Positions 12,649-21,150 of a DNA stretch of 64,000 nt are shown here, in pieces (within the stretch, counting starts at the first letter, position 1; every line of letters starts with the position of its first letter). The stretch is from an uncultured Pedosphaera sp. (GTDB lineage: Bacteria; Verrucomicrobiota; Verrucomicrobiia; Limisphaerales; Pedosphaeraceae). The notes beneath the pieces were generated by a model. That model ran no database searches. It was given only the letters and a program-made list of their open reading frames with translations, and was not told the origin of the DNA. The position numbers were made by a program, and so were the translations under genes. The stretch covers positions 62,001-126,000 of the forward strand of contig CAIXFN010000082.1 of NCBI GenBank assembly GCA_903918755.1, in the 5' to 3' direction.

Positions 12649-15600
12649 TCACGCGGCTTCGATCGTTCGCGGGCGGCGGGCGGCGAGGGCGCGGAGGCTG
12701 AAGCCGCGACCGTTTTCGTAGGCTTCCACCTGGGCCTCGATTTCGAGGACGGGATAGCGCACGGTGGCCAGCCCGTAGGTGCGGTAGGTGGTGGCGAATA
12801 GCTCCGTCTCGATGATGCCGGTCCAGTCGGCCAGGGAGAGGAACTTCATGGGTTCGCCGGTGATCTGGTGGTGGATGCGTTGCTCGACCACCAGGCCGCA
12901 AAGGGAAACCGTTTGCCCCACGAATTCGCCCAAGCGGTTGACCGGGCAATAGGTGTCCCAAGCGATCTGGTGGTGCAATTCGAGCGGATGACCGCTGACA
13001 GGGAAGCCGAACAGTTCGTTTTCCGCTGCCAGTCGCTCGAGTCGGGTTGGTTCCGTCACGGGCAGGGTGGGCAGGCTGGCGGGATCGGCCGGGGGGATCA
13101 GCCAGCCCTGTTGGGGGTCCGTGGTGGAACCGAACGTGCGCAGGAGGTATTGCGCCTGCCAGAATTGCCGGGTGCGCGGGTCGCCAAACTCATCAAAACT
13201 GCCGATCCGGATCAGGGCTTCCAATTCCTCGCCGGCGGGGCGGATGCGATGGAAGAAATCGGAGAGAGAAGTGAACGGCCCCTGGGCCCGGGCCGCGACG
13301 ATCTGGTCGGTGGTGCGCTGCGTGAGTCCCTTCATGCGGGTGAGGGGAACGCGGATCGTGGCGGCGCGCGGCACAAAGGCCGGGCCGGGTTCGTTGACGG
13401 ATGGCGGCAGCAATTGCAAGCCAAGGCGATGGCACTCCAGCACGTAGACCAGCGGATCGTAAAATCCCTTGCCATTGGAAAGCACCGCCGCCATGAACTC
13501 GGCCGGGAAGTAGCGCTTCAGCCAGGCCGATTGATAGGCCTCGACGCCGTAGGCGGTGCTGTGCGCCTTGCAAAAGGCATAGCCGGCAAACCCCGTGACC
13601 AATTCCCAGACTTCCGCGATTTTTTCCGGCGCATGCCCGCGGGCGAGGGCGGCGGCAAAGAATTCGCCCAGGATTTCCTCGATGACCGGGCGTTTTTGTT
13701 TGTTGAGCGCCCGGCGGAGCACATCGGCACGGCCCGGCGGGAGACCGGCAAAGGCTTCGCAGATTTGCAGGATGTGCTCCTCGTAAACCACCAGTCCGTA
13801 GGTGCTGCGCAGGCAGTTGGCCAGGGAAGGGTGGGGGTAGGTGACCGGTTCCAGGCCTTGGTAGCGCCGGGTGAAGGAGGTTTTCTTGCCCTCGTTGGCC
13901 GCGCCCGGCCGGATGACGCTGACGATGGCGATCAGCCCGTCGATTTCCCGCACATTGCACATGCGATTGAGGCTGGTCATGGCCGGGCTTTCGATGTGAT
14001 GGACCGCCCGCGCCTGGCCGCCGGCGATCATGGTCCAGACTTCGGGGTCGCACCAGGGTTCCGGGGCGGCGGGGTCGCCCACCAGGATTTCGCCGGTGGC
14101 GGTGATCCGGGCCACGCACTGCTCCAGATCCACGGTGATCCCGCGCGCGAGCAGCCCGTTTTTGACATCCCGCATGGCCGCCAATCCGCCCTGGGCCAGG
14201 ATGTCCATCTTGACCAGGCCGATCTCCTCGACGGCATCCATGTCAAAGTGGGTGGTGGCGTAGCCCTTGCTGGCGATGAAGGTGGGCGTCAGCTCGTGCA
14301 GCGGCTGCCGGGAGAGCACGAGGCCGCACGGGTGCATTTTGGGGTAGCGGGGCATGCCGTCCAGGAAGGCGGCGGTGAGCAGGGCGGTCCGGTAAGGTTC
14401 CTCCTCCAGGGGCAGTTCGCGGTTTTCGGGGCTGGCCTTGAGCTTTTGGATCAGTTCGGCGCCGCGGTCGGGGTGCGGCTGGTCCGGCACCCAGCCGCCG
14501 CCGAAGCTCCAGGGGAAATGATCGGTGAATTTGCGCACCTCCCGCTCGGCGACGCCCAGGACCTTGGCCACTTCGGCAAAGGCGCTGCGCGCCTGGAAGG
14601 TGGAAAAGCCGCCCACCACGGCGCAATGTTGCCGGCCGTATTTGGCGAAAATGAGTTTCACCACGTCGTCCTTGAAATCGTGCGCGAAATCGATGTCGAT
14701 GTCCGGGAGCTTGTTCAGCGCCATGCGTTCGAGGTTGAGGAAGCGTTTGAAATACAGGTCAAACCGGATCGGGCACACCCCGCTGATGCCCAGGCAATAG
14801 CAGACCAGGCTGTCGGCGGCGCTGCCGCGCGTGATCCACTCAATCCCCCGGGCCCGGCAGTCCTGGAGGAAGTCCCAGGTGATGAGAAAATATTCCTCGT
14901 AACCGACCGCGCCAATGATGGCGAGCTCCTCCATGACCTGCGGCCGGTGCTGTTCGGCGCGGGGGCCGTAGCGTTGGTGGAGCCCCTGGAGCACGAGTTG
15001 CTGGAGGAGTTCGCGGGCGGTGGGGCCGTTGCGGCTAACAAAGGCCGGGAATTGCGGTTTGCCAAAGGGCAATTCAAACCGGCAACGCTCCGCGATTTCC
15101 AGCGTGTGCCGCTGCCAGTCCGGGTGTTCCCGGCAACCGGCGGCCATTTCCGCCGGCGTCCGAAAATGCCGGAGGCCGCCCCGGTTCTTTTCCGGATGCG
15201 CCTCCCGCAGGAGGGTGAGGGTGCGGATGCTTTGCACGATGTCATACCGTTGGCGGTCCGCCGGGGTGGCGTAATGCACCGGGGGACAGGCGACGGCGGG
15301 CCAGTCGCCCGGGGTGCCGTGGGTCGTGGCCAGGGAGTAAAAGGCGTTCGGGAACAGGGGGGCCAGTTCCTGGTCCGGGCTGACGGCGATCAAACCCTCG
15401 GTGAGGCCGGCAAACTCGTCCCGGTAGAATGGCAGGCGCTGCTGGGCCGCCACGCCTGATTCCTCCGGGTGCACGGCGGTGCGCTCCGCGTGGCGGGACA
15501 GGAGTTGGCACAGGTTGTAATAACCCGTCGCGGTGGCCACATACAGCAACAGCGGTTGGTCCGCGACGCGGAGTTCCGTGCCGATGATGGGCCGGATGCC

Positions 15601-17037
15601 GGCGTTTTTGGCGGCGAGCACAAATTCGACGACGCCGTGCAGGTTCCCGGTGTCCGTCAGGGCGACGGCCGGTAGACCATGTTGACGGGCGAGATTCACA
15701 ATCGCCTCCGGCGACAGCGTGGAGTCGAGAAACGAATAGTGACTGTGGGTGCGGAGTGGCACGTAGGTGTCGATCGCCGGCGGTTGGGCGCCGCTGCCAT
15801 TACCGCGGCCCCGGCGCGCGCGGGAGGTCGCGGTGGGCCGGGTGGACGGCGGGGCGAGGGCGTCCCGGGGGGGCAAGCGGAGCCGGAAATCATGGCCGCG
15901 CATGATGATGCCGTGCCCAAGTTCCCGGCGGAGCGCGTCAATCCGGGCGGCGACCCGCGCATTGGCATCGTGCCGCTCGGCTGCGGGCAGGACAGCCAGT
16001 TCGGTCAGCAGGGCGCCGGCATAGACATGGGAGAGTTTGAGCGAGACCAACCGCAGGCTGACGCGGCGTTTCCACGCCTTGCGCAGCAGGGTGTGGAGCA
16101 GGGAGTAGATGTCGGTTTCCAGATCGGTCGGTTCCGGCAGGCTTTCGCTCACCTGATCCTCCCCCATGTCATTGTAGCGGACGCGGACCGTCACGGTCCG
16201 GATGCTGCGGCCTTCCTCCCGGATGGTGGCAAACAGATTATCCGCCATGCGCCGGAGGACGGCCTCGACATATTCCTCATCGGTGAGATCGGTGGCGAAA
16301 GTTTCCTGGTGGCTGAAGGATTTTTGGGGTTCCCGCAACTGGACCAGCGGCCGGTCATCGATGCCCAGGGCATACTGGCGGATGACCGGGGCCTGGTTGC
16401 CCAGGAGCAGTTCGAGCATGTCCAGCGGGGTGAGCGCCACATGCCGGATTTCCGCCAACCCGGCGGCATTGAGGCGCACGCTGGTTTTGGGGCCCACGCC
16501 GGGCAGCCATTTGTTGGGCAGGGGGTGGAGAAACGCGGCCTCCTGGCCGGCCGGTACCTCGCAAAACGCCGCCGGTTTGCGGAGCTTGGAGGCCACGGCG
16601 CTGATGAGTTTGTTGGAACCGATGCCCTCGCTCACCGTGATTTTCAGGCCCTGGCCGATGGCCCGGCGGATCGTCAGCGCGATTTCGGCGGGAGGTTTCC
16701 GCGTGCCGGAGAGATCCAGGTAACCTTCGTCAATGGAGGTCTGTTCCACATCGGGCGTGAAGTCGTAGCAATAGCCGAACATCCATTGGGAGAATTGCTC
16801 GTACCGCTCGAAATCCCCGGGCAACACGATCAACTTAGGGCAGAGCTTCCGCGCCCGGGCGGTCGGCATGGGGGTGTAAACCCCAAACCGCCGGGCTTCG
16901 TAGGACGCGGATGCGATGATGCCGCGTTTTTCGCCGCCCACGGCAATCGGTTTGCCGCGCAGGCGCGGGTCAGCGGCCTGCTCGACGGCCGCGAAAAAGG
17001 CATCCGCGTCGAGGTGAACGATGGAACGGGGCCGCAT
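12649..17037 (-). CDS. DinB-like Y-family polymerase fused to DnaE-type C-family DNA polymerase
   Basis: A single uninterrupted 1462-residue frame. Residues 1-390 are a complete Y-family polymerase: HLDADAFFAAVE with D10/D12, SIDEGYLD with D103/E104, the LPGVGPKT helix-hairpin-helix, and a little-finger domain to about 388. A low-complexity Pro/Ser/Arg linker (about 390-422) joins it to a C-family polymerase. That part has a PHP domain from THSHYSF (430) through TDTGNLHG (461), LPDIDIDF with catalytic Asp (779, 781), VKMDIL (Asp 945), helix-hairpin-helix and OB domains to the C-terminus. The DnaE part (about 1040 residues) is DnaE2-sized, without a tau-binding tail. Both catalytic sets look intact, unlike ImuB, which has lost them. 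The predicted role is SOS-induced translesion synthesis. It starts 3 bases after the lexA stop. Confidence 0.92.
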   Translation of the reverse strand: MRPRSIVHLDADAFFAAVEQAADPRLRGKPIAVGGEKRGIIASASYEARRFGVYTPMPTARARKLCPKLIVLPGDFERYEQFSQWMFGYCYDFTPDVEQTSIDEGYLDLSGTRKPPAEIALTIRRAIGQGLKITVSEGIGSNKLISAVASKLRKPAAFCEVPAGQEAAFLHPLPNKWLPGVGPKTSVRLNAAGLAEIRHVALTPLDMLELLLGNQAPVIRQYALGIDDRPLVQLREPQKSFSHQETFATDLTDEEYVEAVLRRMADNLFATIREEGRSIRTVTVRVRYNDMGEDQVSESLPEPTDLETDIYSLLHTLLRKAWKRRVSLRLVSLKLSHVYAGALLTELAVLPAAERHDANARVAARIDALRRELGHGIIMRGHDFRLRLPPRDALAPPSTRPTATSRARRGRGNGSGAQPPAIDTYVPLRTHSHYSFLDSTLSPEAIVNLARQHGLPAVALTDTGNLHGVVEFVLAAKNAGIRPIIGTELRVADQPLLLYVATATGYYNLCQLLSRHAERTAVHPEESGVAAQQRLPFYRDEFAGLTEGLIAVSPDQELAPLFPNAFYSLATTHGTPGDWPAVACPPVHYATPADRQRYDIVQSIRTLTLLREAHPEKNRGGLRHFRTPAEMAAGCREHPDWQRHTLEIAERCRFELPFGKPQFPAFVSRNGPTARELLQQLVLQGLHQRYGPRAEQHRPQVMEELAIIGAVGYEEYFLITWDFLQDCRARGIEWITRGSAADSLVCYCLGISGVCPIRFDLYFKRFLNLERMALNKLPDIDIDFAHDFKDDVVKLIFAKYGRQHCAVVGGFSTFQARSAFAEVAKVLGVAEREVRKFTDHFPWSFGGGWVPDQPHPDRGAELIQKLKASPENRELPLEEEPYRTALLTAAFLDGMPRYPKMHPCGLVLSRQPLHELTPTFIASKGYATTHFDMDAVEEIGLVKMDILAQGGLAAMRDVKNGLLARGITVDLEQCVARITATGEILVGDPAAPEPWCDPEVWTMIAGGQARAVHHIESPAMTSLNRMCNVREIDGLIAIVSVIRPGAANEGKKTSFTRRYQGLEPVTYPHPSLANCLRSTYGLVVYEEHILQICEAFAGLPPGRADVLRRALNKQKRPVIEEILGEFFAAALARGHAPEKIAEVWELVTGFAGYAFCKAHSTAYGVEAYQSAWLKRYFPAEFMAAVLSNGKGFYDPLVYVLECHRLGLQLLPPSVNEPGPAFVPRAATIRVPLTRMKGLTQRTTDQIVAARAQGPFTSLSDFFHRIRPAGEELEALIRIGSFDEFGDPRTRQFWQAQYLLRTFGSTTDPQQGWLIPPADPASLPTLPVTEPTRLERLAAENELFGFPVSGHPLELHHQIAWDTYCPVNRLGEFVGQTVSLCGLVVEQRIHHQITGEPMKFLSLADWTGIIETELFATTYRTYGLATVRYPVLEIEAQVEAYENGRGFSLRALAARRPRTIEAA

Positions 17038-17040
17038 GGT

Positions 17041-17667
17041 TCATTCCCGCGCCTTGCGAATGAGCGCCCGGAAAACGCCCTGGATCATCAGTTCCTCGGC
17101 GGGAATGAGGTCCGGGTATTTGGGGTTCTCCGCCTTGAGGAAAGGCTGGTTGTTTTTGAGCAGGAAGGTTTTCAACGTGCTCTTGCGGTCGATCAGCGCC
17201 GCCACCATCTGCCCGGAACGCGGTTCGGGGCCGTGCTCCAGGACGACGATGTCGCCATCGCACACATGCCGGCCGATCATGGAATCCCCCACGACCCGCA
17301 GGGCAAAGGTGTTGCGGGAGGGCTTGAAACCGATGGTGCTGATGTCCACGGAAATCAGTCCTTCACTTTCCTGCTCCCGGTCCTGCCCGAAGCCGGCCGG
17401 GATGGAACCAAAAAGGGGAATGGTGGTGATCGTCACCGGAACCACGGGTTGCGCCGCCTGCGCCAGTTGGAGCGCGCGCGCCTTCCCGGAGGCGGCCAGC
17501 AGGGCGCCCTTTTTGACGAGCGCCCGCACATGACACGCCGCGGCGTAGGAACTGGCAAAATTAAAGTGGGCGGCGATCTCCCGCTGGCTGGGACACGGCC
17601 GTCCCGCCGTCAGTTCATCAGCGATGAAGGCGCGGACCGCTTCCTGTTTGGGGCTCAAAACTGTCAT
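17041..17667 (-). CDS. lexA: LexA-family SOS repressor (S24 self-cleaving)
   Basis: 208 residues from the ATG at 17667; an in-frame ATG at 17676 would add three residues. N-terminal winged helix-turn-helix (about 5-68: SPKQEAVRAF, PSQREIAAHF) and C-terminal S24 domain. The cleavage site Ala-Gly is at 91-92 (SIPAGFG), the catalytic Ser at 129 (VVGDSM) and the catalytic Lys at 166 (STLKTF). RecA-stimulated self-cleavage should lift repression of its own operon, which contains the polymerase fusion 3 bases downstream. The recognition-helix region (FASSYAAACHVRAL) departs from classical LexA, as expected if it reads a different operator. It may be a second LexA dedicated to the mutagenesis cassette; whether another lexA exists lies outside this window. 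Confidence 0.9.
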   Translation of the reverse strand: MTVLSPKQEAVRAFIADELTAGRPCPSQREIAAHFNFASSYAAACHVRALVKKGALLAASGKARALQLAQAAQPVVPVTITTIPLFGSIPAGFGQDREQESEGLISVDISTIGFKPSRNTFALRVVGDSMIGRHVCDGDIVVLEHGPEPRSGQMVAALIDRKSTLKTFLLKNNQPFLKAENPKYPDLIPAEELMIQGVFRALIRKARE

Positions 17668-17686
17668 ACTGCTCATTTGAGCAGTA
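17667..17686 (-). promoter_or_regulatory. Predicted LexA operator overlapping the lexA start codon
   Basis: TACTGCTCA (17667-17675) and its exact inverse TGAGCAGTA (17678-17686) flank a 2-base centre. The core reads TGCTC-N4-GAGCA on either strand. The reported verrucomicrobial LexA consensus is TGTTC-N4-GAACA, so this differs by one symmetrical change per half-site. The A of the ATG at 17667 is the last base of the palindrome, so bound repressor would cover the translation start region. Confidence 0.75.
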
Positions 17687-17909
17687 GTGCGCAGGGAAGT
17701 CAAGCGTAAAGGGGATGGGGCGGGCCGCCGGAAAGCGAGTCGCCAGGGCTTTTGCCGGGGGCACTTTCTCCTTTCCACGCTGTCCCCAATCCCCCATTTT
17801 ACCGGTGACCAATGGGCGCGGATGTTTCACGAACCAAACAGAGCAAGCGGCAAATCCACAGGCTACGCCGCTGATCTGACTGACTCCTTCCTCGCGCCGT
17901 AACATTTTC

Positions 17910-20126
17910 ATGATTGAACGCCATTTTGAAGTACCTTTTGTTTCGCGGTTGGCGCTGCGGGAAAAGCAAATCCAGCAAAACTACCGGCCGGTCATCGCCG
18001 TGCATAAGTGGTTTGCGCGTCGGCCGGGGACACTGTTTCGATCCCTGATCCTGTCCGAATTTGCGGAACAGCCGATCCATCAGACGTTTTACCAGAGTCA
18101 GCAGTTGCCCAACGTGCGAGTGTTCGACCCCTTCATGGGAGGAGGGACTACGATGATGGAGGCGAATCGCGTTGGTTGCGCCGTTGCGGGCACGGATGTG
18201 AATCCGATGGCTTGGTGGATCGTGCGTCAAGAATTGGGGGAACTGGATGTCGCAGCTTATCAAAAAACGGCGGAACAATTGCGGTCTCATTTGGAGGCTG
18301 AGATTGGCCATTTGTATCGTACCCGATGCCTGCATTGCGGCAGTGAGGAAGCCCGGGCGAAGTACTTTCTGTGGGTGAAAACGGCCGTTTGCGAGAGTTG
18401 CCATCAACCGACCGACCTGTTTCCGAATTTCCTTATTTCCGAGGATGTAAGGCATCCGGCGAACGTGTTCGTGTGTGGTTGCTGTGGCGAGCTGTTTGAG
18501 GCGGCCGATTGGAAGAATCCCGGGCCCTGCCCACATTGCCGAAAAGCTTTGCCGTTGCAGCACACCGCCAAACGCAACAAGGCGATCTGCAAACACTGCG
18601 ACCAGCCGGTCCGGTATCCCGGCGCAACGTCGCCGAAACACCGCTTGTTTGCCCTGGAATATCATTGCGAATCCTGCGGCTCGCAATCGGTCGCCGGCAG
18701 CGGGAAAGGGCGACTGTTCAAGAAACCGGACGCCGCGGATCATGCGCACTTTGAGGAGGCGGGGAGGAGGCTCCAGTCGCTCCGGCCAAAGTTCATTCCC
18801 GAAGATAAGATTCCCGACGGGGATGAAACCGATCGCCTGCATCGGTGGGGATACAAGTGCTACCGGGATCTTTTCAACGCGCGACAACTCCTGGGTTTGG
18901 AACTGAGTTGTCGCTGGATTGCCGCGGTTAAGAACGAGCGCATTCGGGAGGCTCTGGCGACCAATCTTTCCGACCTGACGCGCTATCAAAACATGCTATG
19001 CCGGTATGATACCATGGCGCTAAAATCTCTGGATATTTTTTCCGTTCATGGCTTTCCCGTCGGTTTGATTCAATGCGAGTCCAATTTTCTAGGAATCGCC
19101 GGGCGCAAGGGGGCGCCGGTCGGCAGCGGCGGATGGTTGAATATTGTGGAGAAATTTGCCAAGGCGAAACGCTACTGTTCCGCCCCTTTTGAAATCCGGC
19201 ATGAGGGTCTCCGGAAGGTGGAAGTTCCGATGCCCGGTGAATGGATCGGCACCTCGCGAAACGGGGAATTTCCGACGCAGGAGCGCGAGGTGTTGTTGCT
19301 GTGTGCGGATTCGGCCTCGGCCAGGATTGGTGGCGAAATGTTTGATGCTGTGTTCACCGATCCGCCTTATTTCGGCAACGTGCAGTACGCGGAATTGATG
19401 GACTTTTGCTATGTGTGGCTGCGCAAGCTTTTGGGTGGTTCCGTGCCGGAGTTCGCGAAAGCCTCCACCCGCCATCACAATGAATTGACCGGCAACGCCA
19501 ACATGGGGCGCGGGCTGGATCACTTCACCGAAGGTATTTCCGACACGATCAGGCGCTCGGCGGAGCGGCTCAAACCTGGACGACCGCTGGCTTTCACCTA
19601 CCACCACAATCAATTGGAGGCCTACCTACCTTTGGCGGTGGCGATTCTGGACGCAAAGTTGGTTTGTTCCGCTTCCCTGCCATGTCCCGCCGAAATGGGC
19701 GCTTCCATTCACATCAACGGCACCGGTTCATCGGTGATCGACACCGTTTTTGTTTGTCGCTCCACGGGCCGATTTCCCCGGCACTGGCTGGCGGACGATG
19801 CCGAGGGGGTTGCCGGGATTATCGGTCTCGATGTGAAGATGCTGGCGGACGGAGGCGTGAAGGCCACTCAAGGCGATATTCGCTGCATCGCTTGCGGCCA
19901 TCTGACTCGCCTGGCGATTTGGAATTTGCGCAAAACTTGGGATCGAACCCTTCCTGTTATGGGGCGGATGGACGTTATTCGGCAATGGCTTTCGACTTTC
20001 GGTGGACTGGCGGCAGTGCTCACCGCCTTGGAGAAAGTCTTCTCAGCCGCCGCCCCAGTCCAAAAATGGGAGACCGCCGGAATTATCAATGAAGCCTACG
20101 AGTCCAAACATGAAGTATCCTTTTGA
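17910..20126 (+). CDS. DNA methyltransferase with inserted zinc ribbons (DUF1156-like)
   Basis: 738 residues. Near the N-terminus WFARRPGTLFR recalls the WWARRP motif of DUF1156 methylases. SAM-binding motif I is DPFMGGGTT (73-81) with GTDVNP following, and catalytic motif IV is DPPY (484-487), so it is an amino-methyltransferase making N6-methyladenine or N4-methylcytosine. Between them, residues about 140-256 hold several CxxC pairs (C140/C143, C161/C164, C207/C210, C227/C230, C253/C256), predicted zinc ribbons that may read the target or a partner. It overlaps the downstream nuclease gene by 17 bases. It runs divergently from lexA across a gap of about 220 bases. Confidence 0.82.
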   Translation: MIERHFEVPFVSRLALREKQIQQNYRPVIAVHKWFARRPGTLFRSLILSEFAEQPIHQTFYQSQQLPNVRVFDPFMGGGTTMMEANRVGCAVAGTDVNPMAWWIVRQELGELDVAAYQKTAEQLRSHLEAEIGHLYRTRCLHCGSEEARAKYFLWVKTAVCESCHQPTDLFPNFLISEDVRHPANVFVCGCCGELFEAADWKNPGPCPHCRKALPLQHTAKRNKAICKHCDQPVRYPGATSPKHRLFALEYHCESCGSQSVAGSGKGRLFKKPDAADHAHFEEAGRRLQSLRPKFIPEDKIPDGDETDRLHRWGYKCYRDLFNARQLLGLELSCRWIAAVKNERIREALATNLSDLTRYQNMLCRYDTMALKSLDIFSVHGFPVGLIQCESNFLGIAGRKGAPVGSGGWLNIVEKFAKAKRYCSAPFEIRHEGLRKVEVPMPGEWIGTSRNGEFPTQEREVLLLCADSASARIGGEMFDAVFTDPPYFGNVQYAELMDFCYVWLRKLLGGSVPEFAKASTRHHNELTGNANMGRGLDHFTEGISDTIRRSAERLKPGRPLAFTYHHNQLEAYLPLAVAILDAKLVCSASLPCPAEMGASIHINGTGSSVIDTVFVCRSTGRFPRHWLADDAEGVAGIIGLDVKMLADGGVKATQGDIRCIACGHLTRLAIWNLRKTWDRTLPVMGRMDVIRQWLSTFGGLAAVLTALEKVFSAAAPVQKWETAGIINEAYESKHEVSF

Positions 20127-21150
20127 AGCGGATTTTGACGAGATCATCGCGGCACCAGAGCCTTTCATAGCAGCGGTGTTTTCCAGTTTAGTATCCGATT
20201 TTTTGACCATGCCCAAAGGTGAAGGTTTCCTGGAATATCCCGATTTTGAGGCTGGTTATGAAGCGTTGAAGATGGCGACTGCCGGTTTTGCCATCCTCGC
20301 TCCCGCCCAAGTAATGCAGGCTGTTTTGGATAAACCCATCTGCCTGATCGTCCTTCGTTGCATGCTCGGGTTTACGGCCCCCGAGTGGGCATATTTGGCG
20401 GCGCAAAAAGCCGGACCTCTGTTGAATCAAAATTTTGCCCGTGCTCTCGACCGCAAAGTCCGGCGCTGCTCATTGAAGCCCATGAAGCCCACCGCTGAAC
20501 AATTGAGACGCATCCAGGCCATGGTTGAAGTCGCTTGCGATATCCTCAATCAAGGATGTCCGGATGTTCGTGCGGACCAGTTACATCGCCTTCAGAAGGT
20601 TGATACGGTGGGCGGACTTCCCGCCGTTCGCAACCTGGCGACCATCGGGGCGCCATATGCCATGATTTTGTATGAACGCTTCCTCGGGCGCCCTTTTGCC
20701 GGGCATCGGGACTCGGTCAGTGAACTCGTTGGAGATGGTTTGGAGAATGCCATCGAAGAGCAACTCGTCCGGGCGGGAATCAGTTTCCGGAAGACCAAAC
20801 GTAGTGAGAAGATCCCCGGTTTCGATCAGGCGCCTGACTTCACAATTCCGAGCGAATTCAACCCAAAAGTGGTCATTGAGGCCAAAATCACCGAAGACGA
20901 TGGGACCGCCCGGGATAAAGTGACTCGCGTCCAGCATCTTCACTCGATTAGCTTTCGCGGAATCGCCCCAGGTGAACCTCCCCGGTTCCAAGTGATCGCC
21001 TGCATTGCGGGCCGTGGTTTTGGCGTTCGCAAGGAAGACATGCGGAAACTCATCGAGGCGACACGGGGGAAAGTGTTTACCCCGAAAACACTGAACCGGC
21101 TGGTGGATTGCTCCGCATTGTCGGAATTCGCGACAAGGAAGGCGGGTTGA
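20110..21150 (+). CDS. Predicted PD-(D/E)xK restriction endonuclease
   Basis: 346 residues from the ATG at 20110, which overlaps the methyltransferase end (20124-20126 stop) by 17 bases, suggesting translational coupling. An alternative in-frame ATG at 20089 is possible. The C-terminal part has the nuclease signature: PDF at 242-244, then VIEAK with E257 and K259, preceded by a helix with Glu (LENAIEEQL, about 211). The N-terminal 200 residues are helical and unassigned and probably hold target recognition. Together with the methyltransferase it forms a type II-like restriction-modification unit. The recognition sequence cannot be told from the sequence. Confidence 0.72.
   Translation: MKYPFEADFDEIIAAPEPFIAAVFSSLVSDFLTMPKGEGFLEYPDFEAGYEALKMATAGFAILAPAQVMQAVLDKPICLIVLRCMLGFTAPEWAYLAAQKAGPLLNQNFARALDRKVRRCSLKPMKPTAEQLRRIQAMVEVACDILNQGCPDVRADQLHRLQKVDTVGGLPAVRNLATIGAPYAMILYERFLGRPFAGHRDSVSELVGDGLENAIEEQLVRAGISFRKTKRSEKIPGFDQAPDFTIPSEFNPKVVIEAKITEDDGTARDKVTRVQHLHSISFRGIAPGEPPRFQVIACIAGRGFGVRKEDMRKLIEATRGKVFTPKTLNRLVDCSALSEFATRKAG

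Follow-up and report, generated by a model that had tools for sequence, protein, structure and literature searches.

Translesion synthesis is commonly described as a relay in which one polymerase hands over to another. In ImuA-ImuB-DnaE2 cassettes, a catalytically dead Y-family protein, ImuB, recruits DnaE2. The Y partners of the ImuA-ImuB-DnaE2 and Streptomyces-type systems are both described as inactive in the available text of PMC12926913. The same text proposes DnaE2B-PolY-RecA complexes, one among 11 module types, from separate genes in Bacteroidetes, on the basis of gene association and AlphaFold models (PMC12926913).

The DNA analysed here, a window of 64,000 nucleotides from an uncultured Pedosphaera sp., carries a gene in which a Y-family half is followed by a C-family half in one polypeptide. 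Among described systems, the DnaE2B-PolY-RecA module of Bacteroidota (PMC12926913; PMC6511836) comes closest; in it, a Y-family gene likewise precedes a DnaE2-like gene. The RecA-NT motif published for the Y partner of this module resembles a motif in the sequence of the fusion, the C halves of the two systems group together, a degenerate PHP site is common to both, and the window genome (a draft, 97% complete) is also without ImuA and ImuB. The module consists of two separate genes whereas the fusion is one polypeptide; its Y partners keep a QxxLF motif that the fusion does not have; and the fusion, unlike the module, has a lexA gene directly upstream on the same strand. The plasmid cassette of Desulfosarcina ovata shows the same one-strand order as the fusion locus (lexA, Y-family gene, dnaE), but its genes are separate, a DUF72 gene lies between them, and its Y protein is distant from the Y half of the fusion (27% identity) and keeps QRPLF. 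In the damage-linked ImuA-ImuB-DnaE2 cassettes, too, a polymerase of DnaE2 type is found together with a Y-family protein, but this Y partner is inactive, whereas the catalytic residues of the fusion Y half are intact. In Streptomyces, DnaE2 has an adjoining Y-family gene (DinB2), but the order is reversed (dnaE first), the genes are separate, and the C half stands apart from the fusion in the C tree. Compared with DinB (Pol IV), the fusion adds a RecA-like tail and a C-family polymerase, and the separate ordinary DinB of the window genome groups apart from the Y half. The best reading of these sequence comparisons is that the fusion resembles the DnaE2B-PolY-RecA module except for the separate subunits, and that the covalent form would be new. 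The original prediction knew of no description of this architecture, and no covalent Y-family/DnaE2 fusion was found in the texts reached by the literature search, the supplements of which might mention one.

Domain organization and occurrence of the fusion gene

The single frame of 1462 codons announced in the original prediction was confirmed by ORF analysis and by Pfam and NCBIfam profiles, with the strand, which had been omitted, now assigned. The gene (12649–17037) lies on the minus strand, where an ATG start opens 1462 codons without a stop; the plus-strand reading of the same interval holds 3 stops. DNA polymerase IV models of NCBIfam match the first quarter of the 1462-aa protein and DnaE models match the remainder. 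A domain search of both halves, with all coordinates on the minus strand, gave the following Pfam layout. The Y half contains the IMS domain (palm/fingers; residues 9–151, 16585–17013), which includes D10, D12, D103, and E104, and IMS_C (little finger; residues 239–338, 16024–16323); solved Pol IV structures match this half over residues 4–339. The C half shows the domain set of DnaE2 with its three palm aspartates: PHP (residues 428–555, 15373–15756), DNA_pol3_alpha (palm/thumb; residues 677–948, 14194–15009, with D781, D783, and D945 located by alignment), the C-family finger domain (residues 994–1132, 13642–14058), and HHH_6 (tandem HhH; residues 1206–1289, 13171–13422). The motif PDIDIDF occupies residues 778–784, and VKMDIL includes D945. 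The best DnaE model match stops at residue 1448 of 1462, at model position 1056 of 1146; the protein accordingly has no C-terminal domain (CTD), a DnaE2 feature according to the available text of PMC3919608. The four Y-half carboxylates, the little finger, PHP, PDIDIDF, and VKMDIL had all been named beforehand and were recovered. Two other named features, the HhH in the thumb of the Y half and an OB fold at the C terminus, gave no scored Pfam domain in the window protein. The original prediction did not include the RecA-like motif, the neighbouring lexA and its operator candidate, or the lineages with split halves. The evidence for an OB region consists of DnaE model matches that reach residue 1448 and of a below-cut-off OB match in an unfused relative. 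Among the best 60 of 80 chains of solved structures matched by the whole protein, none covers both halves.

In-frame insertions of at least 25 aa (25–86 aa) were observed near residue 1224, in the interval between the finger and HhH domains, in 6 of 18 full-length relatives (L013, L014, L020, L021, L023, and L045). L045 has further inserts of 26–106 aa at other junctions.

The same architecture was then sought in other genomes, the whole-genome searches covering this phylum and the sampled genomes being mostly drafts. At E ≤ 1e-130, and with some matches to one half only, the fusion was matched in 117 of the 293 genomes sampled from the order, in 66 of the 154 more complete ones, and in 64 of 118 genera. 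We called a genome fused when a single alignment began at or before query residue 10, reached residue 1200 or beyond, and lay in an uninterrupted frame of 1400 codons or more. Such an alignment, spanning both halves in one frame, is present in 59 genomes of the order (counting that of the window) and bears out the covalent joining of two polymerases; many full-length matches were obtained among 58 related genomes. The other matching genomes of the order have sequences truncated at contig ends, several aligned pieces, or split halves. One fused genome, G390, is a single 4.73-Mb contig and encodes a fusion of 1460 aa with lexA upstream. In a phylum-wide sample of 288 genomes, searched at E ≤ 1e-150, a threshold that would hide weak unfused relatives, three matches were found: the window's own genome; G244, from the same class but another order, with a 1418-aa fusion and lexA upstream; and G061, matched through its DnaE alone. 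None of 1336 matching phage records contains a place where 80% of the query is covered, and none of the viral contigs matched six peptide patterns. At least 40 plasmid records cover at least 80% of the query; in all ten of those examined, Y and dnaE are in separate genes or ORFs.

Two full-length fusion genes per genome were seen in G449 (C8, C70) and G387 (C41, C31). The gene also occurs in L040 (CALQJI020000008.1), the title of which, Klebsiella pneumoniae, is probably wrong, and in L046 (PMYF01000670.1, titled Acidobacteria), where it is matched in several frames. No second Y-family match to the fusion query was found in G390 at E ≤ 1e-8, and the fusion may be the only Y-family polymerase of this genome.

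Relatives with separate genes and phylogeny of the two halves

Three genomes of family f16 (G364, G487, and G518) have a lexA-Y pair with the C half on another contig, and their Y gene stops shortly past the RecA-like motif. Fused members of f16 are next to these three in the Y and the C tree alike, within the clade of fusions, which makes a secondary split the most likely reading. In family f113, G345 is also split, with the halves on different contigs, and G475, G455, and G382 are fused. The covalent link is therefore not indispensable in these four split genomes. In G496, the Y gene is broken and the C half is open. G061, from outside the class, has unfused and unlinked homologues of both halves and is a candidate for the state before fusion. 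Unfused plasmid loci have dinB followed by dnaE with an overlap of 4 nt (Adhaeribacter) or 1 nt (Emticicia), and the Desulfosarcina plasmid locus reads lexA-DUF72-Y-dnaE.

We built a tree for each half, and both place the fused rows in one clade. The Y tree (48 rows) was made carefully; the fused and split rows together with the standalone Y protein of G038 form one clade (100/98), and the ordinary DinBs of the order, the window genome's own included, fall outside it. The C tree, of 47 rows, was made quickly and has long branches. In this tree, fused and split rows make up a single clade; its sister is the unfused G061 DnaE (100), and next to these are the DnaEs of the Bacteroidota and Desulfosarcina Y-dnaE operons (SH-aLRT 99). 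DnaE1 and the DnaE2 of ImuA-ImuB cassettes fall elsewhere. The C half, DnaE2-sized in the original prediction, is upheld as DnaE2-like, but the comparison with ImuA-ImuB cassettes is corrected, because the C tree separates their DnaE2 from the fusion; the proper comparison is therefore the DnaE2B-PolY-RecA module, as presented in the available text of PMC12926913. Streptomyces and Bacteroidota DnaE2 are both classed there as DnaE2B (PMC12926913). In our C tree, Streptomyces DnaE2 joined the ImuA-ImuB DnaE2 (97) on a long branch, so that the published DnaE2B group was not reproduced, and the DnaE2B label is for this reason provisional for the fusion.

The window genome (draft, 97% complete) has only two genes with an IMS domain, the fusion and the ordinary DinB, and no ImuB among them. 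Its sole match to the ImuA model is below the cut-off and lies inside the RecA gene. These results agree with the original suggestion that bypass could proceed without ImuA or ImuB. No genome among the 293 of the order reached the cut-off of the ImuA model. We therefore used as a proxy a second below-cut-off ImuA-model match in a genome; 5 of 54 proxy genomes have the fusion against 21.6 expected (Fisher p 7e-8), a figure that ignores relatedness, 28 of the 54 belonging to family f7. An ImuA-ImuB-DnaE2 identity for the locus is excluded on three grounds: the catalytic residues of the Y half are intact, neither ImuB nor ImuA was found, and the C half has another position in the C tree.

Motifs, active sites, and the linker

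Residues 354–387 (15877–15978, minus strand), just before the linker, were compared with the RecA N-termini of 5 genomes by hhalign profile comparison, which gave a score of 20.16 and a probability of 47%. None of 200 column shuffles reached 20.16, reversed RecA scored 6.9, and among windows along RecA only the N-terminal ones scored well. The resemblance of this segment to the RecA N-terminus is modest, and it suggests that the segment may bind RecA.

The place of the β-clamp motif at the end of the Y half, located by comparison of tails, is occupied by a degenerate ELAVL (residues 346–350, 15988–16002, minus strand), and many relatives have ELPL-type residues there. QxxLF was found in 0 of 53 distinct Y-half tails of fused or split lineages, and it is kept in 4 of 4 Bacteroidota partners, in Desulfosarcina, and in G061; the standalone Y protein of G038 has ELPLF. 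The six ordinary DinBs of the order that were examined keep the Q and are missing the F. The contrast in QxxLF is therefore one with DnaE2 partners and not with every Y-family protein, and ELPL might still bind the clamp weakly. In the C half, QGWLI (residues 1310–1314, 13096–13110, minus strand) aligns with QSSLF/QSSMF of DnaE1 and is a candidate clamp-binding motif. QGWL is present in 17 of 22 fused rows and Q-x-W/L-L in 19 of 22; QGWL is off-consensus, and the pattern is missing in 3 of the 22. Joining the halves may have let a single clamp contact serve both polymerases.

The alternative that survives best is that two translationally coupled genes were joined in a near-neutral event. Their products would work as a two-subunit complex, to which the link adds little. 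The unfused, overlapping dinB-dnaE genes of the Bacteroidota operons, the unlinked homologues in G061, and the split lineages in f16 and G345 are what such a history would leave. It accounts less well for 59 fused genomes in an order in which 64 of 118 genera have matches (some to one half only), or for Y halves that are without QxxLF in fused lineages, as if dependent on the C half; the motif is also missing in the split lineages, which is compatible with a stable complex. We regard near-neutral joining as improbable, although it deserves to be kept in mind.

The seven carboxylates D10, D12, D103, E104, D781, D783, and D945 are invariant in all 31 aligned fusions. D10, D103, and E104 are presumably the catalytic carboxylates of the Y half, their roles being assigned by analogy with DinB. 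Between the window and G001, a genome of the same genus, ω is 0.085 in the Y half and 0.143 in the C half. Six further pairs gave 0.035–0.224 for the Y core, the highest being from a pair with a dS of only 0.04, and 0.072–0.183 for the C half. These results indicate that both halves are under purifying selection, and both look functional as polymerases; catalytic activity is predicted for each. The PHP metal site is degenerate, with VPLRTHS in place of VHLHLHT and ALTDTG in place of AITDHG of DnaE1; since the metal-site residues of DnaE1 are replaced, proofreading is unlikely. A substituted PHP site is reported for nearly all DnaE2 in the available text of PMC12926913.

A Y half that merely recruits and positions the C half, as ImuB does, and itself synthesizes no DNA has precedents in the inactive Y partners of the ImuA-ImuB-DnaE2 and Streptomyces-type systems, as far as these are described in the available text of PMC12926913. 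Its four carboxylates, however, are invariant in 31 of 31 fusions, and ω is 0.035–0.085 in six comparisons and 0.224 in the one with the low dS. An ImuB-type inactive Y half is thus not supported, the active-looking Y half of the original prediction is upheld, and we consider recruitment alone unlikely.

The halves are connected by a variable Pro/Arg/Ala-rich linker (residues 388–424, 15766–15876, minus strand), defined from an alignment of 19 sequences. The ω of the linker is 0.108–0.70 in the five pairs where it was computable, and the linker is mostly less constrained than either half. These properties, and its shortness, would suit a protein that is cleaved at the linker after translation to give two independent polymerases, but no conserved site was apparent by eye in the alignment of 19, and such cleavage seems very unlikely. 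In G001, the halves lie on two contigs, and the ends of both fall within the linker, the pattern expected if a contig break had hit a single gene; this is the one point in favour of an assembly or sequencing artefact joining two genes, which the one-frame alignments across both halves in 59 genomes, including the single contig of G390, lead us to reject with near certainty. The fusion is a real gene, neither a chance frame nor an assembly join.

The lexA gene and a proposed mode of action

The cassette lexA (17041–17667, minus strand; Pfam and NCBIfam) is 3 nt upstream of the fusion gene and encodes 208 aa from the ATG at 17667; the ORF call of 245 aa begins too early. A LexA operator candidate, ACTGCTCAAATGAGCAGT, abuts this ATG (17668–17685, minus strand); it is a perfect 18-bp palindrome with the arms ACTGCTC and GAGCAGT around AAAT. 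A −35-like element, TTGAC (17699–17703, minus strand), is just upstream of it. The locus has two sequence features of a LexA-regulated SOS cassette, namely lexA and an operator-like palindrome upstream. We compared 35 lexA genes located upstream of the cassette or of its Y half, near relatives included. In 29 of the 35, the 60 nt before the start contain TTGAC (the window's was counted by hand). A 7+7 palindrome matching at 6 or more positions lies within 45 nt in 27 of the 35; in 200 shuffles, the mean count was 1.4 and the highest 9. The exact palindrome occurs once in the window genome, and sites with 1–2 mismatches are no commoner than a control pattern.

The window genome encodes a second LexA (G000:C1:44847-45461, L153). 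It shares 75% identity with the cassette LexA, and a palindrome of another sequence, ACTGTTCATTTGTACAGT, precedes its ATG. The fusion protein is not matched on the contig of this second gene, where a sensor histidine kinase is the next long ORF of that strand. The cassette therefore appears to have a private repressor; binding of the LexA, control by it, and its cleavage are predicted.

The Verrucomicrobia LexA motif TGTTC-N4-GAACA gave 14 matches in the window at ≤2 mismatches versus 22 expected by shuffling, that is, no excess; one of the 14 is the palindrome at 17670–17683.

By eye, the core of the operator candidate varies by lineage across the 35 loci, seemingly with the recognition helix of LexA: sites of the ACTA type accompany R or K at one position of the helix, and sites of the ACTG type accompany N, T, or Y.

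We consider it fairly likely that the fusion is a mutasome in a single chain, the proposed DnaE2B-PolY-RecA module in covalent form. Our confidence was lowered slightly by the failure of the C tree to recover the published DnaE2B group and by the ordinary DinBs without F. The more detailed picture, one chain in which both polymerase folds are active, Y inserting and C extending, with a RecA contact at the hinge, a clamp contact in the C half, and a private LexA with an operator for the cassette alone, is put forward tentatively. DNA damage would give rise to RecA filaments, on which the LexA encoded upstream would cleave itself, so that lexA and the fusion gene would be induced together. The RecA-like motif between the halves would dock the fusion on RecA, and the C half would grip the β clamp through QGWL. 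The Y half would insert opposite the lesion, and the C half, having no PHP proofreading, would extend the distorted end by an intramolecular switch that needs neither ImuA nor ImuB. This division of labour, with the Y half as inserter and the C half as extender, is proposed.

With a candidate inserter and a candidate extender fixed at 1:1, the hand-off becomes testable inside one molecule, and the split lineages are natural controls. As a covalent counterpart, the gene fusion would also be independent, evolutionary support for the DnaE2B-PolY-RecA complex proposed in the available text of PMC12926913.

Two further observations concern the surroundings of lexA. In L085 (G469:C5), the match to the lexA that adjoins a standalone Y gene falls into two overlapping frames, and this lexA may be frameshifted. 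In the window, two divergent neighbours lie on the plus strand (17910–21150), one encoding a 738-aa protein with below-cut-off matches to DNA methylase and DUF1156, the other an overlapping ORF of 382 aa with no Pfam match; this pair is perhaps a restriction-modification system.
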